A stretch of DNA of 64,000 nt. Origin: Desulfobacula sp. Its GTDB lineage: Bacteria > Desulfobacterota > Desulfobacteria > Desulfobacterales > Desulfobacteraceae. Below, one piece after another: positions 1,720 through 20,032 of this stretch (the stretch's first letter is position 1; each line of letters begins with the position of its first letter). A program made the translations under genes and the position numbers. The DNA is taken from positions 124,001 through 188,000 of the forward strand of contig JAMPXP010000005.1 of the NCBI GenBank assembly GCA_023701135.1, read 5' to 3'. The notes beneath the pieces were generated by a model, which searched no databases, had not been told where the DNA came from, and was given only the letters and a program-made list of their open reading frames with translations.

Positions 1720-1858
1720 ATGCTGCCGCTCCTTGTATGCGTTTATCCCCATAAATATATTGGATATTTTTGCTGATATCGGATAAGAAGGCAAGAGACG
1801 AATTGAACCCGCCGGAAAAAAAGGCCTGGGCTTGAGCTGCCTGGGCCGGGGAGAGAAA

Positions 1859-2563: not shown

Positions 2564-2578
2564 AGGACGAATACCCCT

Positions 2579-3805: not shown

Positions 3806-3816
3806 AGGGAGAGATT

Positions 3817-6800: not shown

Positions 6801-7062
6801 CCTGGCCCTGGGACTCTCCCATATGTCCGGCCGCAGGGTCCGGGTGGATTCTTTATTTTTGGACGAGGGCTTCGGCACCCTGGATGAGGACGCCCTGGAA
6901 ACTGCCCTGGAGGCCCTGGCAGGGCTTCATCGCCAGGGTAAACTCATCGGCATTATTTCCCATGTCCCGGCACTGAAGGAAAGGATCGGCACAAGGATAG
7001 CCGTCACCCCGGTTTCAGGCGGGAAAAGCAGGATCTCCGGCCCCGGCTGCATGGCCCTCTAA
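3817..7062 (+). CDS. sbcC: Exonuclease SbcCD, ATPase subunit C
   Basis: A 1081-residue Rad50-like SMC protein. The Walker A motif GPTGAGKST lies at residues 37-45. Long heptad-rich, Lys/Glu/Leu-rich coiled coils flank a zinc hook, CPLCG, at about residue 538. The ABC signature LSGGES is near residue 983 and the Walker B motif LFLDEGFGTLDED near 1012. The two coiled coils bring both ATPase lobes together at SbcD. The start is GTG at 3817, preceded by AGGGAGAG, which gives the family N-terminus MKILGLRFKNLNSLYG. The extreme Glu/Lys-rich composition creates long antisense frames, which I do not regard as genes. Confidence 0.95.
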   Translation: MKILGLRFKNLNSLYGEWVIDFTAPEYVQDGIFAITGPTGAGKSTLLDAVCLALYGRTPRLNLITKTSNEVMSRRTGECFAEVFFETQAGRFRCHWSQRRAGQKPGGNLQDAKHEISDADTGRVLESGKREVALRIEEATGMDFTRFTRSMLLAQGGFAAFLAAAPDERSPILEQITGTAVYTEISKLVHLRKTDEYKKLEILKAETEGITLLTEEEEALILEGLEQKKAAEESARQKHQEVRAAILWITGMETLKTELLSIRAESDNLSGALKAFEPDRKRLQEAIRAAELDSLHAGLKSLRDQQKEDLDALSKIRALMPDRQKALETGGIALEKAESALEALKAQEKTELARIKTVRALDLRISEKAAVLNTLAIERQKMEAEMAGKKEQRKKAAQDLAKAEQGLSQANDYLSRHALDAGLGTRLAGLAEQVKALQAVKEKQAAAARDLSGLRKTLEAAKGRSRQQAAVRQGLKEKHEACLKAVEAARKEMEALLEGRLLREYRAEYEGCLREMAYLRKIRDLEQEREKLKEGEACPLCGSLDHPYARGQIPQADRTEESIKRLSSLIEKAEDLEKGLKDREALEKSSGLALMEAEKQEVLVRHQEEDLRTDILRSEKEFHRVSDDISRQTEALVLELQAFGLDGIPADGPGALMESLTARQKNFQDSLDRKISMEKRQAEVLAGISGLDRMVQSLEERIRESREKAGEHRLDLERLNSERIQCYGDKDPDREEARLERQVEAAEKAVKTARKNRDEAREQVREGLTRISALEEATSSRQSGLLTREASFLQACRTSGFETEVIFLSSRLSPDERKRLSEKAGKLDESVLALEARKADREKRLLAETQKQLTDQGLEDLRKEEADLQEALKTLGEEIGAVKQRLSDNALAQEKLLQKKQFIDLQRLECARWDSLHGLIGSADGKKYRNFAQGLTFEVMVAHANRQLEKMSDRYLLIRDETQPLELNIVDNYQAGEIRSTKNLSGGESFIVSLALALGLSHMSGRRVRVDSLFLDEGFGTLDEDALETALEALAGLHRQGKLIGIISHVPALKERIGTRIAVTPVSGGKSRISGPGCMAL

Positions 7063-7087
7063 CCGTGGACCCGACAGGTCCCCGGCA

Positions 7088-7360
7088 TTATTTCTGGGCC
7101 TCCTCGGGCGTGGCCCAGAGGATATGGTCTTTGTTGACAAACAGGGTTTCATATTTTTCAGGAAAATCCAGGCCTGACCGGTATACGGCGGCGTTGATCA
7201 GGACCAGAAAGGGCTCCCGGTCGCTGCTGATGAGATCGCTGAGCCTGCTGTATCCGGGCTGGCGGTCGATATTAACGCTGGCGCTGATCCTTGTCCCGTC
7301 CACCAGGGTAATCCGGATGGTGCGGGTGTTCATGTCCTTATAAAAGTCAAGGTCATCCAT
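7088..7360 (-). CDS. Small conserved protein, DUF6812-like
   Basis: A 90-residue soluble protein. The pattern RTIRITLVDGTRI, then VNI, RLSDLISSDREPFLVL and LFVNKDHILWATPEE resembles the DUF6812 family, whose role is not known. It has no signal peptide, cysteines or membrane segment and looks like a small all-beta fold. I take ATG 7358-7360 as the start because GGAGG lies 5 bases upstream. A longer frame beginning at 7381 lacks a ribosome site. It is convergent with sbcC, with only 25 bases between the stops. The family assignment is from memory of the motif pattern. Confidence 0.7.
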   Translation of the reverse strand: MDDLDFYKDMNTRTIRITLVDGTRISASVNIDRQPGYSRLSDLISSDREPFLVLINAAVYRSGLDFPEKYETLFVNKDHILWATPEEAQK

Positions 7361-7461
7361 GGGGTCCTCCTTTGGCTGCAAGTGAAGGGATGGTTTGTTG
7401 CAGCAAAGGTAAGAACGGATGGAAAGTCTGTCAACCCATGGATTTTATTAAATTTTTCCCG

Positions 7462-8400
7462 TCAGGCCCCCATCTCCTGGAACCGGATGAACAGGGCCAG
7501 CCCCAGGAAAACAAGGGCCATCCCGGCCATGGAAATGCCGTCGGGCAGGGGGGCATTCAGGAGGAGGATTTCCCCGGCCAGGGCGAAAATCACCTCGCTG
7601 GACTGGGTGGCATCCACGGCGGCCAGTTCGGCAGGCCTTTGGGATTTATTCCGGGCCGTTAAAAACAGGCTCGTGGCAATGACCCCGGAGAATACGGCCA
7701 CCAGAAAGGTATGGACCATTTGGCCCCGGGAAGGAAGCCCGGGCCGGGTCAGGGCAATCAGCACCAGCCAGAAGGGAACGGACCCCAGGGACATTAAAAA
7801 AACTTTGTGAAAGGGGTTCTTCACCAGGGGATCATCAATCCTGGGCAGGGCGGTATTTCCCCGGCCGGCCTCCCAGACCAACTGGTTTCCGACGGGGTAG
7901 CAGAAGGCGGCCAGGAAAACCGGAAGGGCGCCCATGAGGATTTCTTTCAGGGAACCCATTTCTGCCAGGTGCAGATTGATCATGAGAACCCCGGCAAAGA
8001 CAAGGGAGGAAAAAATCCAGGTTTTTTTTGGGAAAGACCTTCCAAATCCCATGAGCACCACAAGGGTGGCGATGATGGTGGTCTGCCAGGTGGCGGCAAT
8101 GACCCAGCCCGGTGAATAATCGGCGGCAAAGCAGAGGAGCGAATAAAACCCGCCGAAACCGATGCTGCCCGTAAGGGTCCAGAATTTCCAGTTCCTGAAG
8201 AAGACCCGGAACAGCCCCCGGGTGGCGGCGGGGCCCTTGAAAAGGGTGATGAGCCCGGTCAGGATCAGGATCATGAAGGCATACCGGAGGCTGGCCGACC
8301 ATACCCAATGCCCGCCGTCAAGGCTCATTATGCGGTTGAGGATAAAGGAGGAACTGAAAAACAGGCCCGACAGAAGACCGATGGAGATTAAGAGAATCAT
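7462..8400 (-). CDS. EmrE-type multidrug/metabolite exporter (DMT superfamily)
   Basis: A 312-residue integral membrane protein with about ten hydrophobic helices in two repeats, matching the larger EmrE-type multidrug resistance efflux family rather than the four-helix SMR proteins. Recognisable parts are the N-terminal SSSFILNR segment, WVWSASLRYAFM and WVIAATWQTTIIATLVVL. Members are proton-coupled or facilitative exporters of small molecules; the substrate cannot be predicted. I use ATG 8398-8400, which begins directly with the first helix. A GTG start 45 bases further upstream would add a charged 15-residue tail. It lies divergently from the radical SAM gene. Confidence 0.8.
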   Translation of the reverse strand: MILLISIGLLSGLFFSSSFILNRIMSLDGGHWVWSASLRYAFMILILTGLITLFKGPAATRGLFRVFFRNWKFWTLTGSIGFGGFYSLLCFAADYSPGWVIAATWQTTIIATLVVLMGFGRSFPKKTWIFSSLVFAGVLMINLHLAEMGSLKEILMGALPVFLAAFCYPVGNQLVWEAGRGNTALPRIDDPLVKNPFHKVFLMSLGSVPFWLVLIALTRPGLPSRGQMVHTFLVAVFSGVIATSLFLTARNKSQRPAELAAVDATQSSEVIFALAGEILLLNAPLPDGISMAGMALVFLGLALFIRFQEMGA

Positions 8401-8559
8401 GGCTGCCTTTTTATCATCTTGGGTTAAAATACCCTGGCGATACACCAGTCCTATGCAAAGATCAAGAATTATTCCGGGAAGCGGCTTTACAACGGCTTGG
8501 CCGGGATTATCTTCTTTCCGTTATGTTGCCCTTTAACCCTGAATATCCCCGGAGGCCCC

Positions 8560-9588
8560 ATGCATTCCCTACCCTTTGAGCAGGGCCCTATCCGGCCCGT
8601 TGACGAGGCCGACAGCCTTTTGATCCGCACCACCCGGGGCTGTCCCTGGAACCGCTGCACCTTCTGCTCCCTGTATGAGGACATGAAATTCTCCCTGCGG
8701 TCCGTGGCAGAGATCAAACAGGATATCCTGGCCGCCCGGGCCTATTTCAACGGTCATCCCTTTGAAACCTGCTTTCTCCAGGACGGGGACAGCTTTGTCA
8801 TGAAAACTAGAGATCTCATCGAGGTCCTGACGGCCCTTAAAGCGGCTTTTCCTTCTTTAAAGCGCATCAGCTCCTACGGCCGGGCCCAGACCATGGTGAA
8901 AAAGACGCCGGCGGAAATGAAGGACATCCGGGCCGCCGGGCTGAACAAGCTCTATTGCGGCATGGAATCCGGCTCCCTTCAGGTCCTTGAACGGGTGAAA
9001 AAAGGCATCACCCCGGAATCCATCATCACCTCCGCCCGCATGGCGGCCGATGCCGGGATGGACACCACCCAGTTCATCATCCTGGGGCTGGGGGGAACCG
9101 AATTGTCGGAGGTCCATGCCCGGGAAACGGCCAGGGTCCTCAGCATCGTCAACCCCGACCATATCCGGGTCCTGACCATCGGGGTCAAACCCGGCTCCGG
9201 CCTGGACCGGCAAATGGCCGAAAAAGAATTCACCCTGCCTTCGGAAACCCAAATGATTGCCGAGCAGCGACTGCTTCTCGAAAACCTGACCGGCATCACC
9301 AGCCATTATGCCAACCACCACAGCGTGGATCTGCTCCTGGAAGTCCGGGGAACCTTCCCCCAGGACAGGGAACGACTGATCGCCATCCTGGACCGGTTTT
9401 TATCCCTGGACCCGGAGACTCGGATCCATTTTATCCTGGGACGGCGCCTGGGATATTACAGGAGCCTCTCGGATATGGACAATTCCTTCCATCACCGGTT
9501 TGTGGAAGAACAGGTCCAGAAAATCCGGCAAACCCATCCCGATGGCTTTGAGCAGATCTTTCACGATCTTCGCTGCCGGGTGATCTGA
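8560..9588 (+). CDS. Radical SAM protein with a CX4CX2C cluster motif
   Basis: A 342-residue radical SAM enzyme of unknown reaction. The iron-sulfur motif is GCPWNRCTFC, with cysteines at 28, 33 and 36, so the spacing is CX4CX2C rather than the usual CX3CX2C. The partial TIM barrel follows, with a SYGRAQTM beta strand and GMESGS (SAM-ribose region), then a FIILGLGG strand. The region is Elp3/MiaB-like but lacks a TRAM domain and any extra cluster-binding domain. ATG 8560 is preceded by GGAGG at 8551. A frame extended to 8497 has no ribosome site. Function is unassigned; the neighbours give no pathway hint. Confidence 0.85.
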   Translation: MHSLPFEQGPIRPVDEADSLLIRTTRGCPWNRCTFCSLYEDMKFSLRSVAEIKQDILAARAYFNGHPFETCFLQDGDSFVMKTRDLIEVLTALKAAFPSLKRISSYGRAQTMVKKTPAEMKDIRAAGLNKLYCGMESGSLQVLERVKKGITPESIITSARMAADAGMDTTQFIILGLGGTELSEVHARETARVLSIVNPDHIRVLTIGVKPGSGLDRQMAEKEFTLPSETQMIAEQRLLLENLTGITSHYANHHSVDLLLEVRGTFPQDRERLIAILDRFLSLDPETRIHFILGRRLGYYRSLSDMDNSFHHRFVEEQVQKIRQTHPDGFEQIFHDLRCRVI

Positions 9589-9651
9589 ACCCCTTTTAAC
9601 GCCACTCCAATCCGGCCTAAAATATTGCTTGGTCGTTGACATGGCCCCCTT

Positions 9652-9685
9652 CCTGTGATTACCTGAACCCGTAATCCGTCACAGG
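9652..9685. repeat. Imperfect inverted repeat upstream of the membrane protein gene
   Basis: The arms CCTGTGA (9652-9658) and TCACAGG (9679-9685) are perfect complements. Inside them TTAC and GTAA also pair, with a 4-base bulge. No T-run follows immediately, so it looks more like a regulatory dyad or mRNA leader stem than a terminator. TGTGA/TCACA half-sites recall CRP/FNR-family operators, but the spacing is longer than the classical site. Confidence 0.4.
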
Positions 9686-9725
9686 TTCCATTTTCCTTTA
9701 TCCTTAAGCAGAGAGGAGGCTCGCC

Positions 9726-10379
9726 ATGACCGACGCCAGCATCAAAGCCCTTGACACCATCCGGGATATTTCCATGCTCAAATGGTATGTGATCCCGCTA
9801 TTGGCCATTGTCTTTTACATCTACACCGCAGAAATGAAAAAGGCCCGGGAGACCCGGAACTGGAATGCCGTGTTTGCGGGCCTCACCGTATTCGGCATGG
9901 ATTTTATCAATGAAACCTGGAACGGCTGGGTCCTTCATTTCACGGGCCGCTCCGCCTTCTGGACCGCCCCCGGCGACACGGCCCTGCGCACCCTGGTGGG
10001 CTGGAACATCGAGATCATGTTCATGTTCGCCATCTCCGGCATCATATATTACAATACCATTTCGGAAGACAAAACGGAAAAGATCCTGGGCATCCCCAAC
10101 CAGTGGTTCTGGGCCATCGGCTATTCCGCCTTCTGTGTGTTTGTGGAATGGTTTTTGAACAAGGGCGGCCATCTCATCTGGGAATACCCATTCTGGAACC
10201 GCTCCTTTAAAGGAGTCTGGCTGATTTTTTTCTTCGGCTATTTCCATTTTTACGTGGCAGCCCTTCTCGTCATCAATATGAAGACCATCCGGGCCAAGCT
10301 GACCACCGTCACCAGCCTTTACACCATCGCTGTCCTGGCCAATATTTACGGCCTCGGCATCATGGGCTGGCGGTATTAA
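9726..10379 (+). CDS. Unknown polytopic membrane protein
   Basis: I do not recognise this 217-residue protein. It shows about six hydrophobic segments, starting with WYVIPLLAIVFYIYT near residue 19 and ending with a helix just before the C-terminus. It is rich in Trp and Phe, with charged or polar residues in the loops (FINETWNGW, VEWFLNKGGHLIWEYPFW). A good ribosome site, AGAGGAGG, precedes the ATG. Codon use matches its neighbours. The gap before it holds an inverted repeat. A membrane enzyme or sensor is possible, but nothing in the sequence decides. Confidence 0.7.
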   Translation: MTDASIKALDTIRDISMLKWYVIPLLAIVFYIYTAEMKKARETRNWNAVFAGLTVFGMDFINETWNGWVLHFTGRSAFWTAPGDTALRTLVGWNIEIMFMFAISGIIYYNTISEDKTEKILGIPNQWFWAIGYSAFCVFVEWFLNKGGHLIWEYPFWNRSFKGVWLIFFFGYFHFYVAALLVINMKTIRAKLTTVTSLYTIAVLANIYGLGIMGWRY

Positions 10380-10403
10380 ATCGTCATTATTCAGGAAAGT
10401 CTT

Positions 10404-11768
10404 ATGGATTTTAAAAACCTGAAAGAGTCCGGCAGGGTTGAGTTTAAAACCTCCTTTGGCAAGGAAGTGATCATATCCCTTGCGGCCTTTGCCAATACCC
10501 GGGGCGGAAAGGTGATCCTGGGAGTGGATGACAGCGGGGAGGCGAAAGGCATTAAGCTGGGCAAGGAAACGGAGCAGAAATATCTCAATGAGATCAAAAC
10601 CGCGACCTATCCCCAGTTGATCCCCCATTCTGATATTCATGATGTGGACGGCAAAACCATCCTGGTTTTTCAGATCAGCGAATATCCGGTCAAACCCGTG
10701 GCCTGTAAAAACCGGTATTATAAGCGGGTTAAAAACAGCAACCATTTGTTGAGTCTGGAAGAGATCGTTGACCTGAGGCAGCAGAGCCTTGATATCTCCT
10801 TTGATGCCCACGCGGTTGAAGAAAGCCTGTCCTCCCTTGATACGGCGGCCATGGAAGCCTTCATGAAACAGGTCAATTCAAGGGGGCGGATAGCGCTCAT
10901 GGACGACCTTCTGACCAATATGACAAAACTTCAACTGATCCGGTCCGGCAAACCCACCCTGGCCGGGCTGCTGTTATTCGGGAATCATGGGTATTCCATT
11001 CATATCGGCCGGTTCAAGGCCGCAGATACCATTATTGACGACCTGCTCATCAAGGCGCCGCTTCCGGAAGCCCTGGACGAAGCCCTGATCTTCATCAAAA
11101 AGCATATCAATCTTTCCTATGAATTTGATGGCGGCCTGGAACGGAAAGAAGTCTGGCAATATCCGCTGGATGTGATCCGGGAGCTTTTGCTGAATGCGGT
11201 GGTTCACAGGGATTATCAGCATTCCACGGATATTGTGATTAAGATTTTTGACCACAGGATTGTGTTTTCAAATCCAGGGACTTTGTTTGGGAGCCTGACC
11301 CTTGAAGACCTGGAAAAAGACGATTATGTCTCGTCCATCCGGAACAAGCTTCTGGCAGAAGCCTTTTATCTGACAGGCGATATTGAAAAATACGGCACAG
11401 GGTTTGTCCGTATCCGGAAAAAATTGGCTGAATTAAAGGCAGGAACCTTCAGAATAAGTGAGATGGGGGACTTCTTCAGGGTTGAATTAATGGATGCCCG
11501 GTCCATCGACTCTGGAAAAGACGTTCAAACGCCGGGGAAAACGCCGGGGAAAACGCCGGGGAAAACGCCGGGGAAAACCCAGGCCCGGATACTGGAACTC
11601 CTGTCCCGGGATCCACACCTTTCCATCCCTGACATTGCGGGGCAGATCCAAAAGTCTGAATCCGCTACCCAGAGAGCCCTTCGAAAATTGCGTGAGGCAG
11701 GGATAGTGGAGCGGGAGGGATCAGCCAAGACAGGCTACTGGAAAATTATAACCCGTCCGGAAGGATAA
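10404..11768 (+). CDS. AlbA_2 / GHKL-ATPase transcriptional regulator with winged-helix tail
   Basis: A 454-residue protein of the Schlafen-AlbA_2 'ATP-binding protein' type, often mis-named RecG-like. Residues 1-115 form the AlbA_2 domain (RVEFKTSFGKE, FANTRGGKVILGVDD). The middle carries a GHKL-type ATPase region (RELLLNAVVHRDY, IVFSNPG, KYGTGFVRIRK). The last 65 residues look like a winged helix (LSRDPHLSIPDIAG, REAGIVEREGS). Between them is a TPGK repeat linker encoded by a 12-bp tandem repeat. Such proteins are thought to be DNA-binding regulators. The pterin-binding methyltransferase gene starts one base after its stop, an unusually tight pairing that suggests it regulates or is coupled to that gene. 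Confidence 0.8.
   Translation: MDFKNLKESGRVEFKTSFGKEVIISLAAFANTRGGKVILGVDDSGEAKGIKLGKETEQKYLNEIKTATYPQLIPHSDIHDVDGKTILVFQISEYPVKPVACKNRYYKRVKNSNHLLSLEEIVDLRQQSLDISFDAHAVEESLSSLDTAAMEAFMKQVNSRGRIALMDDLLTNMTKLQLIRSGKPTLAGLLLFGNHGYSIHIGRFKAADTIIDDLLIKAPLPEALDEALIFIKKHINLSYEFDGGLERKEVWQYPLDVIRELLLNAVVHRDYQHSTDIVIKIFDHRIVFSNPGTLFGSLTLEDLEKDDYVSSIRNKLLAEAFYLTGDIEKYGTGFVRIRKKLAELKAGTFRISEMGDFFRVELMDARSIDSGKDVQTPGKTPGKTPGKTPGKTQARILELLSRDPHLSIPDIAGQIQKSESATQRALRKLREAGIVEREGSAKTGYWKIITRPEG
11529..11576 (+). repeat. Four perfect 12-bp tandem repeats inside the AlbA/GHKL regulator gene
   Basis: The unit ACGCCGGGGAAA occurs four times without change at 11529-11540, 11541-11552, 11553-11564 and 11565-11576. 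It encodes four TPGK units in the linker between the ATPase region and the winged helix. The unit length is a multiple of three, so gain or loss of units would change linker length without shifting the frame. Confidence 0.95.
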
Positions 11769-11769
11769 T

Positions 11770-12627
11770 ATGAAACTCATTGCCGATAACCTTCGCATCA
11801 CAAAGCCGATGATCCGGGAGGCGCTGAAAGCCCTTGATCCGGTGCCGGTGCAGGAACTGGTGAAAAGGTGCGCAGCCCAAAGGCCCTTTGCCCTGGATAT
11901 CAATACCGGGCCTTTGGGGAAAAACCCGGAGGCAGGGATGCGGTTTTTCATCGAGGCTGCGGAAAGCGTGACAACCCTTCCCCTTGTCATCGACACGTCC
12001 AATCCAGGGGCCATGAGGGCGGGGCTCCAGGCGGCAAAGAACCGGGTCATCATCAACGGGTTTTCCCTGGAGCCCCGCAAACTTGAACAGATCCTGCCCC
12101 TGGCAAAGGAATTCGATGCCGATATTGTGGGATTTCTGTTATACCCGGACAGCCGGGTGCCCAGAAACGAGGCGGAACGCTTTGAAATTGCCCTGGAACT
12201 GATGGACAGGGCCGAAGGCGCCGGCGTGGCAAAGGAACGGGTGATCATTGATCCGGTGGTGCCGCCCCTGGCCTGGACCGACGGGATTGCCCAGGCCAGG
12301 GCCGTGCTGAATGTCATCCACACCCTGCCGGATGTATTGGGGTTCGCCGTCCGGACCATTGGGGGCATCTCCAACCTGGGCACCGGGGCAGGGGACAAGG
12401 CCAAAAGGCGGTTGCTGGAGCAGAGCTATGTGGCCATGCTGGCCTCGGCGGGCTTAAGCTTTGCCCTCATGGACATTTTGGATCCAGACCTTGTTCAATC
12501 AGCAAGGGTGTCGGCGCTTCTGGCCAAAGAAGAGATTTTTTCCTGGGCCATGGTGCCGGAACCCTGCGAATTGCTTCCCCAAGATACGAAATCAACGCTG
12601 ATCAACCCGAACTTCCAGAAAGGATGA
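11770..12627 (+). CDS. Pterin-binding (DHPS/MeTr-like) corrinoid methyltransferase
   Basis: A 285-residue TIM-barrel protein of the dihydropteroate-synthase-like family. It has FALDINTGPLGKNPEAG, LVIDTSNPGAMRAGL and IINGFSLEP, the signature set of methyltetrahydrofolate:corrinoid methyltransferases (AcsE/MtvA/MtgA group), rather than of folate-synthesising FolP. Such enzymes move a methyl group between tetrahydrofolate and a corrinoid protein. No corrinoid protein or MtaB/MttB partner lies next to it. The start is one base after the stop of the AlbA/GHKL regulator, so the two are probably translated together; cfa follows after 4 bases. A cobalamin operon lies 2 kb downstream on the other strand. 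Confidence 0.8.
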   Translation: MKLIADNLRITKPMIREALKALDPVPVQELVKRCAAQRPFALDINTGPLGKNPEAGMRFFIEAAESVTTLPLVIDTSNPGAMRAGLQAAKNRVIINGFSLEPRKLEQILPLAKEFDADIVGFLLYPDSRVPRNEAERFEIALELMDRAEGAGVAKERVIIDPVVPPLAWTDGIAQARAVLNVIHTLPDVLGFAVRTIGGISNLGTGAGDKAKRRLLEQSYVAMLASAGLSFALMDILDPDLVQSARVSALLAKEEIFSWAMVPEPCELLPQDTKSTLINPNFQKG

Positions 12628-12631
12628 TCCG

Positions 12632-13753
12632 ATGAATGAAACCAAAGCCAAAAAAATTATGGAGACCTTATTGGTCCCCATGGATATCCGCATTGACGGG
12701 GAAAGGCCCTGGGATATCCGGGTGAAGGACCCGGATTTTTATCAGCGGGTTCTGTCCGGCGGCTCCCTGGCCCTGGGGGAAAGCTATATGGAGGGAATCT
12801 GGGACTGCGACGCCCTGGACCGGTTTTTTGAAATTATTCTGGCAAACCGGATGGATCAAAGGATCAAAGCCATGGGCGGCAAGGTGATCTGGGACCTGAT
12901 CACGGCCCGGATGACCAATCTTCAGAGCCGGGCCCGGGCCTTTATCATCGGCCGGCGGCATTATGATACCGGCAACAAGCTCTTTTCCATCATGCTGGAC
13001 AAGGGGATGAACTATTCCTGCGGGTTCTGGCAAGGGGCGCATACCCTGGATGAGGCCCAGGAAGCCAAGCTGGAACTGATCTGCCGGAAGCTGGACTTGA
13101 AACCGGGCCTGCGGGTCCTGGACATCGGCTGCGGCTGGGGCGGGTTTGCAGGCTATGCCGCCCGGAACCACGGGGTCCGCGTCACCGGCGTCACGGTTTC
13201 CAAAGAACAGATGGCCTATGCCAGGGAAGCCTGCCGGGGGCTCGAGGTTCAAATCGAAATGAAGGATTACCGGGACCTGGACCAACCCTTTGACCGGGTG
13301 GTGTCCGTCGGCATGTTCGAGCATGTGGGGTGGAAAAATTACCGGACCTTTATGCGGGTGGTCCACCGGTGCCTGACCCCGGAGGGGCTTTTTCTATTGC
13401 ATACCATCGGGGGGAACAGATCTGTCAAGGCGACGGACCCCTGGATCAGGAAATATATTTTTCCCAATTCCATGCTGCCGTCGGCCCGGCAGATCGCCCA
13501 GGCCGCCGAAGGCCTGTTTGTCCTGGAGGACTGGCACAGCTTCGGGCTGTATTATGACCGGACCCTCATGGCCTGGTACGACAATTTCAGGAAGGGCTGG
13601 GAGGCTGTCCGGGACCAGTATGACCCGCAGTTTTACCGGATGTGGTGTTATTATCTCCTGTCCTGCGCCGCCGCCTTTAGGACCCGGCGGAACCAGCTCT
13701 GGCAGATCGTGTTTTCCAAGGGCGGGATCAAACATGTGTTCAAGGCCCGGTAA
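12632..13753 (+). CDS. cfa: Cyclopropane-fatty-acyl-phospholipid synthase
   Basis: A 373-residue SAM-dependent enzyme that adds a methylene bridge to unsaturated acyl chains of membrane phospholipids. The N-terminal lipid-binding part contains GGSLALGESYMEGIWDCD. The SAM site is VLDIGCGWGGFAGYAA, followed by GVTVSKEQ and MFEHVGWKNY. The C-terminus has the SCAAAFRTRRNQLWQ motif with the Cys (345) equivalent to the active-site cysteine of E. coli Cfa. The length matches the family. It begins 4 bases after the methyltransferase gene and is likely in the same transcript. Confidence 0.93.
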   Translation: MNETKAKKIMETLLVPMDIRIDGERPWDIRVKDPDFYQRVLSGGSLALGESYMEGIWDCDALDRFFEIILANRMDQRIKAMGGKVIWDLITARMTNLQSRARAFIIGRRHYDTGNKLFSIMLDKGMNYSCGFWQGAHTLDEAQEAKLELICRKLDLKPGLRVLDIGCGWGGFAGYAARNHGVRVTGVTVSKEQMAYAREACRGLEVQIEMKDYRDLDQPFDRVVSVGMFEHVGWKNYRTFMRVVHRCLTPEGLFLLHTIGGNRSVKATDPWIRKYIFPNSMLPSARQIAQAAEGLFVLEDWHSFGLYYDRTLMAWYDNFRKGWEAVRDQYDPQFYRMWCYYLLSCAAAFRTRRNQLWQIVFSKGGIKHVFKAR

Positions 13754-13803
13754 TGGATTTGCCTTTAGCCGTTATTGAACCTGATGAAAAGTGAGGTCCC
13801 GGG

Positions 13804-14328
13804 ATGAATCGTCACCATTTGGAAAACCTGACACGGGCTTTGGAAATTTTTCCCGGCCACGAATCCTTTTCGGCAAGCCTGGCCGGGATTCTTTTGTCTG
13901 CCTGTGAAAAGGACACCATCACCCATGATGGGCTGAACCAGGGGAAGCTCCTGGATTTCAGCGATGTCCTGCTGTTTTTATGGGAATGGAAATTCATTCT
14001 GCCGGTACGTTCCGCCAAATGCGGGGAATGGGATTCCCGCCTTTTGACGGCCGGGCCGGACGAGATATTTGAAATGCCCCATATCTCAAGGGCCCTGGTA
14101 AGAAAGGCCGCCCGGACCGGGGCCTGGGACTCGAGGCCTGCCATTGTGGATCTTTTTTCACCCATGGATGCCGGGCTTCTTATGTTTTTTTTCGACCATC
14201 TTGCCGGCCGGGACTTTTTTGTCATCAGCGGCATGATGAGCCCCTGTCCCCAAAGATCCCTCAGGACAGGCCTGTCTTTTTACGAGGTCAGCCCTGTCCT
14301 GTTCTGGGGCAACCCGATCAGCATATGA
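13804..14328 (+). CDS. Hypothetical protein
   Basis: This 174-residue frame has no family that I recognise. AGG lies about 7 bases before the ATG, and codon use (G/C-rich third positions) fits the neighbourhood, which supports a real gene. The N-terminal half is helical (LTRALEIFPGHESFSASLAGILLSA). There is a WEWKFILPV segment and a hydrophobic MDAGLLMFFFDHLAGRDFFVISG region near residues 120-140, more like a buried core than a membrane helix. It follows cfa by 50 bases and is convergent with the CobT fusion gene. Confidence 0.55.
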   Translation: MNRHHLENLTRALEIFPGHESFSASLAGILLSACEKDTITHDGLNQGKLLDFSDVLLFLWEWKFILPVRSAKCGEWDSRLLTAGPDEIFEMPHISRALVRKAARTGAWDSRPAIVDLFSPMDAGLLMFFFDHLAGRDFFVISGMMSPCPQRSLRTGLSFYEVSPVLFWGNPISI

Positions 14329-14395
14329 TTTTTTTTTCTGATCTTCCCGGAGGTATTTTGTACGCTACCCCTTCATGGCGACCATTCCGGCATGG

Positions 14396-14425
14396 ATTCC
14401 GAAATAGTCAAGACTTTTTCGGAAT
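14396..14425. repeat. Perfect inverted repeat between convergent genes
   Basis: ATTCCGAAA (14396-14404) pairs with TTTCGGAAT (14417-14425) around a 12-base loop. It sits in the gap between the stop of the hypothetical gene (14328) and the stop of the CobT fusion (14444). Neither side has a T-run, so a rho-independent terminator is doubtful. It could be a 3' end stabilising stem. Confidence 0.4.
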
Positions 14426-14443
14426 GCTGTCCGAGAAAGTCGG

Positions 14444-16564
14444 CTATGGGCGGTGGAGATTCATGGAGGATCTTGCCACCTTTGCCTCATCAAAGGAAGC
14501 CATCTCGCACAGGATTTTGCAGGCCGCATCAATGATGTCCATGGCCAGTGCGGCCCCTGTGCCCTCGCCCAGCCTCATGTCAAAATCGATGAGGGGCACA
14601 AGGTTCATATGGCCCAGGGCCGCCTTCTGGGCCTTTTCCACGGAGCGATGGCCCGAGATGAGATAGCCCTGGACCGCCGGATGGATGAGGTAGGCGATGA
14701 GGCCTGCGGCCGTTGAAATGACCCCGTCCAGGACAATGGCGGTTTTTTGGGAGGCAGCGGCCAGGATGGCCCCGGTCATGCCGACGATTTCAAAGCCCCC
14801 GATTTTCTGGAGGAGTTCAAACCCGTTGGCCGGGTCCAGGTCATGAAAGGCCAGGACCCGTTCAATGACCTCTATCTTGTGGGCAAGGCCTTTGTCGTCC
14901 ACGCCCGTTCCCCTTCCTGCAGCCTCGGCAGGGCTGATGCCGGTGATGACGGAAATGAGGGCCGAGGCCGAGGTGGTGTTGCCGATGCCCATTTCCCCCA
15001 GTCCCACAATATCCATGGGGGTTTTTTCATAAGCCTCCAGAAAAGTGCTCATCCCGTTTTCAAGGGCGGCGATCACCTGTTCCCGGGTCATGGCCGGTTC
15101 AAGGGCAAAGTTCCGGGTTCCTTTGGCCACCTTTTTGATGATGAGATCCGGGTGGGGGGAGAACTCCTTTTTGACGCCCATGTCCACGATTTTCAGGTCA
15201 ATGCCGTGGTGGCGGCAGAGCACATTAATGGCGGCCCCGCCGTTTAAAAAGTTCTCCACCATCTGGGCCGTGACCTCGGAGGGATAGGCGGAAACCCCTT
15301 CTTCGGTAATGCCGTGGTCCCCGGCAAAGACAAAGAGGTTTTTTTGCCGGATGGCCGGGGAAAGGGTGTTCTGGATCAGGGCCATGCGGACGGCCAGGTC
15401 CTCCAGGCGGCCCAGGGCGCCCAGGGGTTTGGTTTTTTCATCCATCCGGGCCGTGGCGGCCGGCAGAAGATCCTCCGGCACCGGGGCTATGGATTCCAGC
15501 ACGGTCCGGCAAAGGCTTTGAGACGGCAGGCCTTCCAGTTTCAGGCCGGGAGAGGCGGGCAAGGGGTTGGCGGCGGCCGGGGCCAGGGGTTTTGAAAGGC
15601 TGAAATCCAGGATATATTTGAGATAATTGCCGGACAAAACCTTGGGCATGAGGGCCGGGGCCGTTTCCGGGGCAAGGGTGTCTTCGATGAGAAGTTCCAG
15701 CAGCCCGGCCCGGGTCTCCATGAAGGGCAGGGCCTTTTGCATATGATCCCGGGTCATGCCGTAGACCCCGGACACGACGGCCTCCCGGTAGTGGATGAGA
15801 TTCAGGAGATTGGTTTCGATCTGTTCGTTCTTGGATATCCCGCTGAAAAAAGCCAGGTGGCCCCCTTTGCAGATCTTGGCAATGCCCTGGCAAAAGGCCT
15901 TGTAATCGGCGCAGGCATTGATGATGAGGTCAAATTCGCTTTCATGGGTGTCCTTGGCGCAGGAGATGCCCGAAGCAAAAAGAAAGGGGGTGATCTTTCG
16001 GATTTTGGCCTGGTTTTTTTCGATGACAAGGGGGATGAGGCCCAGGTCAAGGGCATAAAGAGCTGTGATCAGCCCCATGGTGCCGCCGCCGTAGATCAGG
16101 ACCCGGTCCCCGGTTTTGGCCGGGAGTTTTTCAAAGGCGTTGATGACGCAGCCCACGGGCTCTGCAAAACAGGCGATGGGGGAGGGAAGGGCGTCCGGCA
16201 GGGGGATGAGGCTGTCCCGGGGCAGGAGGGCCCTGTGGGCAAACCCGCCGTCGGTGTGGAACCCGGTGATCTTCATGCCTTCACAGAGGTTTTCCTTTCC
16301 TGTCCGGCAGAAGGTGCAGGCGCCGCAGCTTTTGCCGGGCCAGACCATGAACCGCTTCCCGGTTTCGTCCCGGACCACCATTTCATGGCCCAATACCCTG
16401 GGGAAAACAAGGTCCCGGTGGCCCTGCTCCCACATCTTGGCGTCGGTCCGGCAGACGGCGCAGCAAAGGACACTGGTCAGAACCAGACTGCCGTCGGAAA
16501 TTTTCATGTCCCGGTCATCGGCCTGGATTTCAAGCCTGCCGAGCCCGGTCAATACCATTTTCAT
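14444..16564 (-). CDS. cobT: Fusion: zinc alcohol dehydrogenase (MDR) + CobT phosphoribosyltransferase
   Basis: A single 706-residue frame joins two enzymes. Residues 1-322 are a zinc-dependent medium-chain dehydrogenase. They show catalytic-zinc residues in CCAVCRTD (Cys 38) and GHE (59-61), structural-zinc cysteines at 80, 83, 86 and 94, and the Rossmann motif GGGTMG at 159-164. An Ala/Pro-rich linker (323-350) follows. Residues 351-706 are CobT, nicotinate-nucleotide:dimethylbenzimidazole phosphoribosyltransferase, with AGDHGITEEGVSAYP, GEMGIGNTTSA (523-533), SGHRSVEKAQ and RLGEGTGAALA containing the catalytic Glu 667. CobT activates the cobamide lower ligand. The ATG lies one base after the stop of the 66-residue gene. 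It is the last gene of a cobalamin-riboswitch operon, which supports a cobamide role for the dehydrogenase half. Substrate of that half is unknown. Confidence 0.93.
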   Translation of the reverse strand: MKMVLTGLGRLEIQADDRDMKISDGSLVLTSVLCCAVCRTDAKMWEQGHRDLVFPRVLGHEMVVRDETGKRFMVWPGKSCGACTFCRTGKENLCEGMKITGFHTDGGFAHRALLPRDSLIPLPDALPSPIACFAEPVGCVINAFEKLPAKTGDRVLIYGGGTMGLITALYALDLGLIPLVIEKNQAKIRKITPFLFASGISCAKDTHESEFDLIINACADYKAFCQGIAKICKGGHLAFFSGISKNEQIETNLLNLIHYREAVVSGVYGMTRDHMQKALPFMETRAGLLELLIEDTLAPETAPALMPKVLSGNYLKYILDFSLSKPLAPAAANPLPASPGLKLEGLPSQSLCRTVLESIAPVPEDLLPAATARMDEKTKPLGALGRLEDLAVRMALIQNTLSPAIRQKNLFVFAGDHGITEEGVSAYPSEVTAQMVENFLNGGAAINVLCRHHGIDLKIVDMGVKKEFSPHPDLIIKKVAKGTRNFALEPAMTREQVIAALENGMSTFLEAYEKTPMDIVGLGEMGIGNTTSASALISVITGISPAEAAGRGTGVDDKGLAHKIEVIERVLAFHDLDPANGFELLQKIGGFEIVGMTGAILAAASQKTAIVLDGVISTAAGLIAYLIHPAVQGYLISGHRSVEKAQKAALGHMNLVPLIDFDMRLGEGTGAALAMDIIDAACKILCEMASFDEAKVARSSMNLHRP

Positions 16565-16565
16565 C

Positions 16566-16766
16566 TCATATCTCCTCTTCCGTCAGAACGAGTTTTTTGA
16601 TGGAGACCCCTTCAAAGCCTTTATCCTTCAAGGCTTCTGCATGTTGCCGGACAAGCGTCATCCGGTCCAGGGGAAAGACACTGGCCTTGTCCAGCCCGGT
16701 CCGGAGATAGGCCCCGTCTTTAGACCGGATATAGTCGGGGCCGGATTTTAAGATGAGCAGTTCCAT
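16566..16766 (-). CDS. Small protein of the cobamide operon (66 residues)
   Basis: An unrecognised 66-residue acidic protein lies between the TrpD-like and MDR-CobT genes. An AAGGAG ribosome site lies 5-6 bases upstream of ATG 16764-16766, and its TGA is followed after one base by the ATG of the fusion gene. That spacing strongly suggests it is translated. It reads as two short beta/alpha units (ELLILKSGPDYIRSKDG, then VRQHAEALKDKGFEGVSIKKLVL), with no cysteines and no membrane segment. A longer frame running up to 17018 overlaps the TrpD-like gene and is not used. It may be a partner subunit or specificity factor; no function can be assigned. Confidence 0.8.
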   Translation of the reverse strand: MELLILKSGPDYIRSKDGAYLRTGLDKASVFPLDRMTLVRQHAEALKDKGFEGVSIKKLVLTEEEI

Positions 16767-16788
16767 GGGTTCTCCTTGTGTGCGTAAA

Positions 16789-17889
16789 TCATACCAGGCT
16801 GTGAAGGGTTGCCAGGCCCTTTTCAGGATCTGTGTTCTGGGCCCTGACCCAGTTTTCAAGGGTCGTGAAGGCTGCGCCCGTTTCCAGCAGGGTGGCCGCT
16901 GCCTGAATGCCCCCTTCAAGGTCCTTTGCCTTTCCGGCAACAAGGAAGATGAGCCCGGCATTGAGAAGCACGGCATCTTTTCGGACGGAATTGTCCCGGT
17001 TGGCCATGAGGCCGGCAAAGCGCCGGGCTTCGGATTTGATATCGGTCCCGGGGGAAAGGGCTTCAGGGCTTTTAGCGGCTATGCCGAGGGGTTTGGGGTC
17101 AATGGTAAATTCATGGATCTCGCCGGTTTCAAGGATTTGGGCGCAATGGGTGAGGCCGCAGACCGAGGCCTCGTCCATGCCCATGCCGGAGCCCTCAAGG
17201 GCGCCGTGGAGGACAATGGCCCGGGTGTAGCCGATGTCCTGCATGACTTCGGCTACGGGCCGGACCATGGCTTTGGAATACACGCCCCGGACTCCGATGG
17301 ACGGCAGGGCCGGGTTGGCCAGGGAGGCGGCAATGTTCAGGGTGGAGCCGAAACAGATCTGCGACAGGATGCGGCCCAGGGCCCTGGGGTGGATATGGGG
17401 GCTCATGCCGTTGAAAAGGCCGATATTTGCGGTTTTTATGCTGCCGGCCACCACGTCGGCCGGGCATTCCACGTCAACGCCCAGGGCTTCGGCCATGTCC
17501 ACGGTGCCGCAGACCGAGGTGATGGCCCTGGCCCCGTGCCGGGCCATGGGGATGCCCCCGGCCGCCGCAACAAGGGCCGCCGCCGTGCTGATATTGAAGG
17601 TTTTGAACGTGTCCATGCCCGTGCCGCTGTTGTCCACGGGACGGAGCCCCGGGTCCAGATCGATTTTGGTGGTGTCCAGGTCATAAATGGCCTGCCAGGC
17701 TCCGGCCACTTCCTGCCGGGTTTCCCCCTTGGCGGTCAGGGCGGCCAGGAAAGCCCCCTGCTGCATTTCCGTGACTTCGTTGTTCAATAGGGAAATAAAG
17801 GCCAGTTCGGATTCTTCCCGGGTCAGGCTTTCTTTCTGGATGAGACGGGTGATGACGGCGCCGAATTCACGGTTCAATGCCTGGGACAT
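16789..17889 (-). CDS. TrpD-like phosphoribosyltransferase in the cobamide operon
   Basis: A 366-residue relative of anthranilate phosphoribosyltransferase. The helical N-domain is followed by the PRPP loop DNSGTGMDTFKTFNIST (86-102), where TrpD normally has GTGGD. It then has ARHGARAITSVCG (116-128), where TrpD normally has a KHGNR motif, and the metal-binding GMGMDEAS. The Lys-to-Arg and Asn-to-Ala changes lie at the pocket holding PRPP and anthranilate. No other trp gene is nearby and the gene sits directly behind a cobalamin riboswitch. I therefore infer a phosphoribosyl transfer in lower-ligand metabolism rather than tryptophan synthesis. The ATG at 17887-17889 has AGGAGG 6 bases upstream. 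Automated pipelines would probably name it trpD. Confidence 0.85.
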   Translation of the reverse strand: MSQALNREFGAVITRLIQKESLTREESELAFISLLNNEVTEMQQGAFLAALTAKGETRQEVAGAWQAIYDLDTTKIDLDPGLRPVDNSGTGMDTFKTFNISTAAALVAAAGGIPMARHGARAITSVCGTVDMAEALGVDVECPADVVAGSIKTANIGLFNGMSPHIHPRALGRILSQICFGSTLNIAASLANPALPSIGVRGVYSKAMVRPVAEVMQDIGYTRAIVLHGALEGSGMGMDEASVCGLTHCAQILETGEIHEFTIDPKPLGIAAKSPEALSPGTDIKSEARRFAGLMANRDNSVRKDAVLLNAGLIFLVAGKAKDLEGGIQAAATLLETGAAFTTLENWVRAQNTDPEKGLATLHSLV

Positions 17890-17948
17890 GATGCCTCCTG
17901 AATAATAAAGGTATTATCAGGATCTTGTTCCAGCAGAGAATCCTAGGG

Positions 17949-18135
17949 CATAGAGGCAGGCTTTCCGACTGACGGATCATCCTAATGGCTGCGCCTTCCC
18001 CTGATCTTAAGAGTGGCTTTTGTGCAGTTTTCGTCCCCGGTCACGGCACCGGCTGGCATGTGGCGGACTCTCACCGCCTTTCCTTTTAACCCTTGGGAGG
18101 CCTGTCCTTCCAAAGGCACCTGTATGCTTGGCCAA
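17949..18135 (-). ncRNA. Cobalamin riboswitch
   Basis: Read on the minus strand, the leader contains the hallmark elements of the B12-sensing aptamer. They are GGTGAGAGTCCGCCAC, the GCCAGCCGGTGCC segment, an AAAGCCACTC box, GGGAAGGCG, and finally AGTCGGAAAGCCTGCCTC near 17951. It lies about 60 bases before the TrpD-like start, so it should repress the operon when cobalamin is plentiful. The outer boundaries are approximate. The leader end carries no clear T-run terminator, so control may be at translation through the AGGAGG site. Confidence 0.92.
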
Positions 18136-18197
18136 TCTTATACCCGGGGCCGGCTTATTTTGTCAACGATAAAAAAGGGAGGCCCATTCCGGGGTCC

Positions 18198-19088
18198 TCA
18201 TCCGCCAAAAATGGTCAGGCCTGCGCCGGTGACGGCCAGGGCAATGGCCAGGGTCTTGGGTCCTGTGATCCGTTCCTTTAAAAACAGGGCCGCCAGGATG
18301 AAGATAAAGATGGTGGACATCTGGTTTAAAATGGCGGCCTGGGAGGCTGTGGTGTATTTCATTCCCCCCACCCAGCAGATCAGGGCCAGATAGTTCCCGG
18401 AAACGGATGCGGGAAAGGCCGTGAGCCAGCTTTTCGAGAACCTGAGTTCACGGAGATAGGACCTGCGTTTGGGGTGGCAGAAGAGATAGACCAGGAGGGA
18501 TGCGGTTCCGGCCCCTACCCGGACAAAATTGGCCCAGAGGATGCCGGTCCTGCCCAGGAGTTCCTTTATGATGACGATTCCCAGGGCCACCAGGACCATG
18601 GCCAGGCAGCCCATGAGGATGCCGGACCAGGAGCTTTGTTTGATCACGGTGGGGTCTGTGATCTTTGTCCGGGACAGGGAGCCCACAAAAACCGCAGCAA
18701 AGATCAGAAAGCCCCCGATCATGGCCCCCGTGGTCAGGCTTTCCCCTAAAAGCAGAAACGAAAAAAAGATCACACTGGGCAGATAGAGGCATTCCACAAT
18801 GGCCACAAGCCCTGCACCCAGGCGGTTCAGGGCCATGAAAAAGAAGAGATCCGACAGGGTGATACCGAAAAACCCGGACACAGCCAGGAGAAGCCAGTCG
18901 TTGAGGGGTTTGTCCGGAAAAAAGGGAATCTTCAGGATGACCATGGTCAGGGAGATCAGGATCAAGGCTACCAGGCTTTTATAAATATTCAGGGAAACAG
19001 GTGAAAACACCTCCCCGCTTTTTTTGTAGAGAATGACGGCGCTTGCCCAGAAAAAGGCGGAGCCCAGAGACAGTATGGCGCCCAGCAT
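18198..19088 (-). CDS. EamA/DMT-family transporter
   Basis: A 296-residue membrane protein with ten predicted helices in two EamA repeats. Repeat one ends near LLLGESLTTGAMIGGFLI and repeat two near FLKERITGPKTLAIALAV, both in the position of the usual family 'GE...G..LI' motif. These are drug/metabolite transporters; the substrate is not predictable. It starts 8 bases after the MaoC-like gene on the same strand and is probably cotranscribed with it. Its stop lies about 60 bases upstream of the riboswitch start, so it could lie on the same strand ahead of the cobamide operon. Confidence 0.85.
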   Translation of the reverse strand: MLGAILSLGSAFFWASAVILYKKSGEVFSPVSLNIYKSLVALILISLTMVILKIPFFPDKPLNDWLLLAVSGFFGITLSDLFFFMALNRLGAGLVAIVECLYLPSVIFFSFLLLGESLTTGAMIGGFLIFAAVFVGSLSRTKITDPTVIKQSSWSGILMGCLAMVLVALGIVIIKELLGRTGILWANFVRVGAGTASLLVYLFCHPKRRSYLRELRFSKSWLTAFPASVSGNYLALICWVGGMKYTTASQAAILNQMSTIFIFILAALFLKERITGPKTLAIALAVTGAGLTIFGG

Positions 19089-19096
19089 GGATGGCC

Positions 19097-20032
19097 TCAG
19101 GAGAAGAGGAGTCTTCCTTTCAGATGGGGAAGCCCCTTTTGCTGGTCCCGGAGTTCAAAACGGACCTGGGGCCGTCCGGTTTCCTCATCCGATGCCTGTT
19201 CCCAGCCCAGGGTGGTGACGGCGGGCATGAACACCGGCAGCTTGAACGAGGCTTCGATGAGGGCAGGGCCCTGAAGGTCAAATTCCCGGTCAAGACTTGC
19301 CGTTACCCTGGCAAGGCTCCACATGCCGTGGGCAATGGCGGTTTTAAAGCCGAAAAGCCTGGCTGTTAGGGTATACAAGTGGTGGGGGTTATAATCCCCG
19401 GACACGGCAGCATAGCGGAGACCGGTGCCCGAGGGAACAGGGATGGTTTCTCTTTGTTCCAGAAAGATTTCGTCTGGTTTCGGGGCCGATGGGGCCTTTT
19501 TTGCCCCGCTCCGGGTAAAAAAGCCTGAAATGCCCTGCCAGACAATTTCCCCGCCGGAGCTGACCTCCAGGATGAAACGGGTTTCAATACCGGTTTCCTT
19601 TTTTGTAAACCCGGAAAGGATACAGGCCAGATCAAGGGTCTCGCCGGTGTTTACCGGTCTTTTCTGTTCAAAGGACTGGAACACCTGGATCAGTCCCGTG
19701 GGCTTCAGGGGGAAAAAGGGTGAGATGATGAATTTTCCCAGGATGCCGATAAAAAGGGTCTGCAGATAGGTGATGGGAATGGTGCCGTTGTTATTTTCTT
19801 TAAATCCGCAGATGGTTCTGTAACGGGAGATGAGGGCCGGGTCCGGTTGAAACCCCTGCAACAGGATACGGGTCAGCGGGACAGTTGCGTTATCGGCCAG
19901 GGTATTGGGACGGAATGGGGCTATCAGCAGGGCTTTTAAAAAAACCAGTCCCATGCGGGGCGTTTTTTTTATTTGCACCGAGGTTTCGGGCCCTGCCGGG
20001 GTTATCCGTATGACGGGTTGGTCCTGTTCCAT
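19097..20032 (-). CDS. MaoC-like acyl dehydratase (hotdog fold)
   Basis: A 311-residue double-hotdog protein. The C-terminal MaoC domain has YAAVSGDYNPHHLY with the catalytic Asp and His, followed by GFKTAIAHGMW. This is the (R)-specific enoyl-CoA hydratase / beta-hydroxyacyl dehydratase signature. The N-terminal half is a degenerate hotdog (IPITYLQTLFIG) with no catalytic pair. The protein is likely to hydrate or dehydrate acyl-CoA or acyl-ACP thioesters, but chain length is unknown. It is divergent from gdhA, with a 192-base gap holding several dyads. Confidence 0.78.
   Translation of the reverse strand: MEQDQPVIRITPAGPETSVQIKKTPRMGLVFLKALLIAPFRPNTLADNATVPLTRILLQGFQPDPALISRYRTICGFKENNNGTIPITYLQTLFIGILGKFIISPFFPLKPTGLIQVFQSFEQKRPVNTGETLDLACILSGFTKKETGIETRFILEVSSGGEIVWQGISGFFTRSGAKKAPSAPKPDEIFLEQRETIPVPSGTGLRYAAVSGDYNPHHLYTLTARLFGFKTAIAHGMWSLARVTASLDREFDLQGPALIEASFKLPVFMPAVTTLGWEQASDEETGRPQVRFELRDQQKGLPHLKGRLLFS

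Follow-up and report, generated by a model that had tools for sequence, protein, structure and literature searches.

What a relative of a tryptophan-biosynthetic enzyme and a zinc-dependent dehydrogenase contribute to an operon with CobT, the nicotinate-nucleotide:base phosphoribosyltransferase, is the question raised by a locus in the genome of a Desulfobacula sp. (GenBank assembly GCA_023701135.1). The locus lies in a 64,000-nucleotide stretch of contig JAMPXP010000005.1 (positions 124,001 to 188,000 of the forward strand), which is referred to here as the window. It consists of a cobalamin riboswitch followed by genes for a TrpD-like protein, a 66-residue protein and a fusion of a medium-chain dehydrogenase/reductase (MDR) with CobT. 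Our computations reveal a conserved unit that has a riboswitch, is tied to CobT by fusion, by shared operons and by co-occurrence, and possesses active sites unlike those of ordinary TrpD and MDR enzymes. From these sequence features we conclude that the module is a Bza- and BluB-independent system that makes or prepares the lower ligand of a cobamide or its ribosyl donor, the chemistry being putative. We favor, at a rough probability of 0.55, a dedicated supply line that would provide CobT with a lower-ligand base or a ribosylated precursor. The module probably follows a previously uncharacterised route in preparing part of a B12-like cofactor. The lower ligand determines which microbes can use whose B12-like cofactor, and a published survey (PMC6461909) states that the cobamide form is predictable for 58% of predicted producers while 42% have no known benzimidazole or phenolic ligand genes. 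A riboswitch-marked module in anaerobes without BluB or Bza would constitute a new marker for such cobamide predictions and would explain second CobT copies.

All parts of the module are on the minus strand and run from 18138 to 14444 in the order riboswitch, TrpD-like gene, small open reading frame (ORF) and MDR-CobT fusion (Table 1). The small ORF starts 22 nt past the end of the TrpD-like ORF, and the fusion ORF (16564-14444, 706 residues) starts 1 nt past the small ORF. Pfam and NCBIfam models detect Glycos_trans_3N and Glycos_transf_3 in the TrpD-like ORF and ADH_N and DBI_PRT in the fusion ORF. The close-packed, same-strand arrangement of riboswitch and three genes described in the original prediction was recovered in its entirety with cmscan, ORF and Pfam/NCBIfam data.

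Table 1. Features of the cobamide-linked module, in window coordinates
Feature	Position	Strand	Basis
Cobalamin riboswitch RF00174, aptamer complete	17938..18138	-	cmscan 77.9 bits, E 1.7e-17, full model
Leader, riboswitch to first gene	17884..17945	-	possible hairpin over part of the Shine-Dalgarno sequence; weak evidence
TrpD-like phosphoribosyltransferase-fold protein, 366 aa	16789..17889	-	domain, motif and fold data
Conserved 66-residue protein	16566..16766	-	conservation; no Pfam/NCBIfam family
Fusion N-terminal half (about residues 1-340), zinc-dependent MDR dehydrogenase	15545..16564	-	K43, R50-D51 signature
Fusion C-terminal half (about residues 353-706), CobT nicotinate-nucleotide:base phosphoribosyltransferase	14444..15508	-	GEGTGA kept

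The riboswitch of the window scores well above the RF00174 gathering score of 31.5. Besides the window, 21 of 28 scanned loci have an RF00174 match that precedes the first module gene by at most about 300 bases (9/9, 6/10 and 6/9 positive by batch); the 28 were picked by us out of 80 fetched and extend across phyla. This placement is not a matter of chance because only 24 RF00174 matches occur in all of the 406 kb scanned. In L077, one of the seven loci without an adjacent riboswitch (locus and genome labels beginning with L and G are ours), the module genes lie inside a longer cbi/cob operon. The leader of the window folds at -14.8 kcal/mol (z -1.32) with 21 of 200 shuffles equally stable, which is weak evidence for a hairpin just before the ATG.

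The original prediction had allowed that the fusion could be an assembly artefact. It is not, because a single match reaching from fusion residue 1-2 to at least residue 699 is present in 24 of the 86 genomes of the family (the window's own counted; two of the 24 have one internal stop) and because gene order is conserved as well. The order TrpD-like, small protein, MDR, CobT is kept in 25 of 30 fetched family loci, the window's own included, with the TrpD-like gene clipped at an edge in three of these 25. The other five loci each lack one or two parts and end there at a contig or locus edge; two of them, L031 and L032, are complete in longer fetches of apparently the same contigs (L054 and L067). 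Since 12 fused CobTs from three phyla (Desulfobacterota, Bacteroidota and Fermentibacterota) form one group in a midpoint-rooted tree (support 95/93), the fusion probably had a single origin from which it spread.

The module was found in Desulfobacterota, as first proposed, but this placement proved too narrow since the module crosses phyla and the fusion is only one of several forms. When 84,980 species genomes were scanned with the alignment of TrpD-like proteins, 109 related stretches came up and 80 of them were retained; the scan demands the exact peptide GTGMDTFK or MARHGARA and thus undercounts (both peptides in 39 of the 80 loci, GTGMDTFK alone in 18 and MARHGARA alone in 23). A relative of the module MDR is present in 71 of these 80 TrpD-like loci, which belong to Desulfobacterota, Firmicutes, Nitrospirota, Bacteroidota and one archaeon. 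In loci beyond the fusion lineage, a free-standing MDR gene directly precedes the TrpD-like gene, for example in the Firmicutes Eubacterium callanderi, Acetobacterium fimetarium and Alkalibacter mobilis, in Geobacteraceae, in a Nitrospirae genome and in a Thermoplasmatota archaeon, and in the Firmicutes loci the small-protein gene comes after the TrpD-like gene. Intermediate orders include MDR-TrpD-CobT (L094, L184), MDR-TrpD-CobT-CobS (L187, L188), TrpD-small-MDR without CobT (L043) and MDR-TrpD-x-CobT (L098), where the N-terminus of x resembles the CbiZ confirmed in L096 and L097. CobS was confirmed in L196, a wider fetch of the contig of L187, in which CobT, CobS, CobD, CbiB, CobU and CobQ surround the module. 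The long cbi/cob operon that encloses the module in L077 (Salinivirgaceae, Bacteroidota; 1-15035) has neighbours that were named by eye; it also contains two CobTs in tandem, the second being very divergent (branch length 1.84). Carriers, by which we mean genomes with the TrpD-like gene or the fusion, are sporadic: the class of E. callanderi has 6 among 391 genomes and the window's phylum 13 among 395, starting genomes counted. The archaeal carrier (L103, Thermoplasmatota; G099) is a metagenome-assembled genome with an MDR-TrpD-like pair and no CobT above the Pfam cut-off, and its assembly may be incomplete.

The TrpD-like protein scores 242.3 bits with the TIGR01245 trpD model (cut-off 199.05) as compared with 395.1 bits for the genome's own TrpD. 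Its predicted structure has the fold of anthranilate phosphoribosyltransferase (AnPRT), with a mean predicted local distance difference test (pLDDT) of 91.9, a best Foldseek E of 5.9e-24 and template modelling scores by query of 0.78-0.86 among the matches listed. Residue positions were matched by alignment to 9ucw and the genome's own TrpD, not to the Mycobacterium tuberculosis (Mtb) sequence itself, and the assignment of motifs to Mtb numbers is one that we presume. The position of the anthranilate-binding Arg is Leu (L175) in all 34 aligned module members, that of the anthranilate-binding Asn (A120) is Ala in 29 and Ser in five, and GTGGD has become GTGMD in 34 of 34, with Met (Met92) in place of the second Gly of the GG pair. 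In AnPRT, according to PMC9835598, Arg193 and Asn138 (Mtb numbering) hold the carboxylate of anthranilate, and Gly107 and Gly110 of GTGGD hold the 5'-phosphate of phosphoribosyl pyrophosphate (PRPP). Met92 and Ala120 were partly selected for by the fetch peptides, while Leu175 is in neither pattern. Among loci fetched without the peptide pattern, Met was present in 23 of 23 and in 17 of 18 covered, with one Ala in this profile-fetched set of 18; the Asn position was Ala or Ser, and the Arg position Leu, in every covered locus of both sets (23 of 23 and 19 of 19 in each case). Residues G89, G91, D93, N99 and S101 (N-x-S) and the metal pair D239-E240 are retained in 34 of 34 members.

The genome's own TrpD keeps the normal Arg and Asn at the carboxylate positions as well as the normal Gly of GTGGD, and its neighbours look by eye like trpE-G on one side and trpC-F on the other; the module gene lies outside any trp operon. 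Because the trp operon contains this other TrpD and because the anthranilate-site residues are replaced in 34 of 34 members, the TrpD-like protein is, on its residues and context, not predicted to be the tryptophan enzyme. The idea of a TrpD-like protein outside tryptophan synthesis is thereby supported. The protein resembles TrpD in its AnPRT fold, its metal and N-x-S motifs and its above-threshold TIGR01245 score, and it differs in having GTGMD, Ala or Ser for Asn and Leu for Arg, in lacking a trp operon and in residing in a genome with a trpD of its own. A "TrpD" label, as likely given by automatic annotation based on TIGR01245, would need correcting. The score above the trpD cut-off is also what could be said for a chance grouping of ordinary enzymes, namely a spare TrpD, an unrelated alcohol dehydrogenase and CobT. 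This explanation is hardly credible and was rejected, as the set is conserved across phyla together with its riboswitches, a long branch with 100/100 support separates the 34 TrpD-like proteins from the two canonical TrpDs included, and active-site residues are replaced.

A different view of the same protein is that its product is a phosphoribosyl donor used in place of nicotinate mononucleotide, or that it recycles the nicotinate released by CobT, with the MDR adjusting the donor. The residues retained in all 34 members are consistent with such a role, and CobT, which requires a ribosyl-phosphate donor, is above cut-off in 24 of 24 bacterial carriers examined (the archaeal carrier has only an 18-bit match, below cut-off). 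We nevertheless regard it as unlikely, given that all 34 aligned members have Met in place of the Gly with which AnPRT contacts the 5'-phosphate of PRPP, that the dehydrogenase is left without an obvious part, and that nicotinate phosphoribosyltransferase occurs independently of the module (11 of 16 family carriers versus 15 of 20 non-carriers, and seven of 12 carriers outside the family). The absence of an association in these counts also led us to discard the module as a replacement for nicotinate phosphoribosyltransferase.

The MDR half retains its zinc ligands C80, C83, C86 and C94 (structural) as well as C38 and E61 in 27 of 27 aligned rows, whereas H60 of the GHE motif is Glu in five of the 27 (L096, L097, L104, L106 and L112, from Geobacteraceae, Nitrospirae and others). 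In horse alcohol dehydrogenase, the His that follows the C-x-T/S-D motif is the proton relay. This His is absent from the module MDR, which has K43 in 27 of 27 rows, while five of five aligned solved relatives have His. R50 and D51, which precede the GHE motif, are each present in 25 of 27 rows, and together with K43 they suggest that the MDR substrate may be charged. The best NCBIfam scores of this half are PRK10083 Zn-dependent oxidoreductase at 75.7 bits and L-threonine 3-dehydrogenase at 71.8 bits, the latter far below its cut-off of 458.35. These scores are the point in favor of the MDR supplying the aminopropanol linker as a dehydrogenase of threonine or aminoacetone, a role that we consider very improbable. 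A CobD-like protein of at least 231 bits (our own dividing line) is present in 43 of 48 carriers, with 13 above the curated cut-off and one near the module in L196, the preceding threonine kinase not having been searched for. Furthermore, a linker role leaves the phosphoribosyltransferase-fold protein without a function, and the fusion partner is CobT, not CbiB or CobD. Thus, from the earlier proposal that the operon serves the lower ligand, its ribotide or the linker, the coherent riboswitch-controlled unit tied to CobT stands, while the linker option was set aside for lack of support given the CobD-like protein in 43 of 48 carriers. We infer that the module acts on the base or the ribotide and not on the linker or the corrin ring.

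The CobT half scores 438.6 bits with TIGR03160 cobT (cut-off 319.3) and 441.6 bits with DBI_PRT, and it keeps GEGTGA with the general-base Glu. This motif and position 174, discussed next, are assigned to SeCobT numbers by a presumed mapping. Position 174 is Glu in 12 of 12 fused CobTs and Asp in eight of eight CobTs of Bza operons, which hints that the fused CobTs may have a different pocket. The general base of SeCobT is E317 (PMC9561151). In the tree the 12 fused CobTs (95/93) are separate from the BzaF-linked CobTs; the CobTs of BzaF genomes are not one clade, since six of eight rows fall together and those of L160 and L200 fall elsewhere. ArsAB, tandem CobT homologues for phenolic bases, offers a further comparison. 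The CobT half aligns to ArsA and to Thermus CobT about equally well and the Bacteroidota locus L077 has tandem CobTs, but the window has a single CobT half, fused to a dehydrogenase, and the genome's second CobT is not in tandem with it, residing elsewhere (contig C38) beside BzaF.

This second CobT leads to the matter of base supply. In the window's genome BzaF and CobT form a pair with frames that overlap by 4 bases (L194:7149-9520; G000:C38:263148-265519), so that the genome has two CobTs, one overlapped by BzaF as a further base system and the other fused to the module MDR. At least two CobTs are present in 15 of 19 carriers with Bza genes versus two of 17 without (Fisher 6.6e-5, ignoring kinship), a single CobT being found in 15 of the 17. 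In 28 of the 86 family genomes, which we chose mainly by completeness, 11 of 13 carriers have BzaF, as compared with three of the 15 genomes that lack a fusion match (p 0.0018, again ignoring kinship). BluB above cut-off was seen in none of the 28 genomes examined, and BzaF, BzaAB and BluB above cut-off are all absent in 27 carriers, several of which are drafts. The simplest reading of these gene counts is that each CobT may have its own base-supply system, with the module being one such system. Known operons share this logic, for example the BzaF-CobT arrangement in G000 and G057 and the bzaAB-cobT arrangement followed by genes read as bzaCDE in G086 and G087, all of which join base supply with a CobT of their own. 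Unlike these Bza operons, the module has an MDR, a TrpD-fold protein and a small protein, and it has no ThiC-family or radical S-adenosylmethionine (SAM) protein. As a supplier of base to CobT it would likewise be comparable with BluB, the oxygen-dependent 5,6-dimethylbenzimidazole synthase, to which no sequence relation of the module was found. One carrier rated 100% complete (G052) lacks CbiD and ThiC/BzaF and has the fusion as its sole CobT.

The module might alternatively break down or reuse the nucleotide of scavenged cobamides, with the TrpD-like protein as a phosphorylase and the MDR oxidising the ribose or aminopropanol fragment, such that the base returns to CobT. The Geobacteraceae loci L096 and L097 have a CbiZ gene (E 1.2e-49 and 5.2e-51) that overlaps the TrpD-like gene, with apparent BtuB and BtuFCD genes (by eye) behind this pair, and BtuFCD-like genes (by eye) follow the TrpD-like gene in L087. 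Such a salvage or remodelling role appears rather improbable because 40 of 48 carriers possess CbiD, a gene of de novo corrin synthesis, and no CbiZ or transport gene was seen by eye in the Firmicutes loci or the fusion-bearing chains viewed. As an observation on the Geobacteraceae loci themselves, the CbiZ that overlaps the TrpD-like gene carries an apparent signal peptide in L096, L097, L098 and L101; Pfam identifies it in the first two of these loci, whereas in L098 and L101 it is assigned by its N-terminus.

The supply line that we favor would operate as follows. The riboswitch would let the TrpD-like protein, the small protein and MDR-CobT be made when cobamide is short. The TrpD-like protein and the MDR, perhaps with the small protein as a partner, would produce or prepare the substrate of the fused CobT, which could be a lower-ligand base distinct from the one that Bza enzymes make, or else a ribosylated precursor of such a base. 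CobT would turn this substrate into the alpha-ribotide that CobS would attach. With low confidence, the TrpD-like protein might add or remove ribosyl phosphate on an aromatic nitrogen base without a carboxylate, and the MDR might then oxidise or reduce a phosphorylated polyol or ribosyl intermediate, the product going to the fused CobT. A more specific version is speculative and would constitute a third, oxygen-independent lower-ligand route besides BluB and Bza. The TrpD-fold protein would N-ribosylate a carboxylate-free aromatic amine with PRPP, the phosphate-reading zinc dehydrogenase would drive oxidation, cyclisation and removal of the sugar tail, and a benzimidazole- or imidazole-type base with its C2 derived from C1 of PRPP would pass to the fused CobT. 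This evidence puts a variant on an equal footing with that route, in which the product may be a cobamide with an altered nucleotide sugar.

Several observations weigh against a dedicated supply line. No module gene resembles a known base-synthesis enzyme, and Bza genes are also present in 22 carriers, so a base is already available to some. The MDR match is absent in nine of 80 loci, some of which are clipped by a contig edge, although L074, L076, L078 and L087 have room for one. CbiD is absent in eight of 48 carriers, and the remodelling enzyme CbiZ in the Geobacteraceae module operon, next to an apparent B12-uptake operon, suits salvage too. Position 174 is mixed in the other 20 CobTs (12 Glu, eight Asp), and its contrast names no base because E174 of SeCobT contacts the ribose 2'-OH and not the base, as described in PMC9561151. 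Finally, the co-occurrence counts are uncorrected for kinship and the absence of Bza genes in draft genomes is soft evidence. On balance we support, as an inference, the suggestion of the original prediction that the operon could represent a hitherto undescribed branch of lower-ligand synthesis. In the open-licence PMC literature, to the extent of the text covered, no work was found that connects TrpD or an alcohol dehydrogenase to the making of cobamide lower ligands. The parts seen of PMC8620254, PMC12452182 and PMC8305020, retrieved for TrpD or a dehydrogenase together with cobamide or cobalamin, concern other matters, and the part seen of PMC10553843 reports BzaAB and CobT in sulfate reducers and does not report the module unit.

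Candidate products were also considered by way of individual organisms. A link to 5-methylbenzimidazole through Desulfobacterium autotrophicum was dropped because a BzaD/BzaE-like pair in its presumed genome (G057) could explain that cobamide type; the link is further weakened by the apparent whole bzaABCDE set of the carrier E. callanderi. Geobacter lovleyi makes cobalamin according to PMC11321594 and PMC3403914; a link of this to the module was considered, and no plasmid record gave a match at E 1e-60. Five Desulfobacterota genomes including Desulfogranum japonicum (L206-L210) have adjacent BzaD/BzaE-like radical-SAM genes, and no BzaC was seen by eye in the fetched flanks of L206, L207, L208, L209 and L210. 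Such a pair together with BzaF might give a benzimidazole other than 5-hydroxybenzimidazole.

The small protein is more than a chance ORF because 27 other loci encode it too, at identities of 42-89%. Its structure is predicted with a pLDDT of 96.8 and contains strands at residues 2-8, 11-16, 19-23 and 30-32, a helix at 33-48 and a further strand at 54-60. Searches returned no Pfam, NCBIfam or PDB-sequence family above chance and no PDB fold match at E 0.001; DUF2584, matched by only two of 40 members with a best E of 0.0024, was rejected as homology.

Upstream of the riboswitch, the window contains an EamA-type transporter gene and a dehydratase-like gene, both read by eye (18198-20032, minus strand), and L035 has genes with N-termini like those of these two in the equivalent position. 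On the other side of the module, an ATP-binding, helicase-like regulator (by eye; 10404-11768, plus strand) contains a tandem repeat of four TPGK units.

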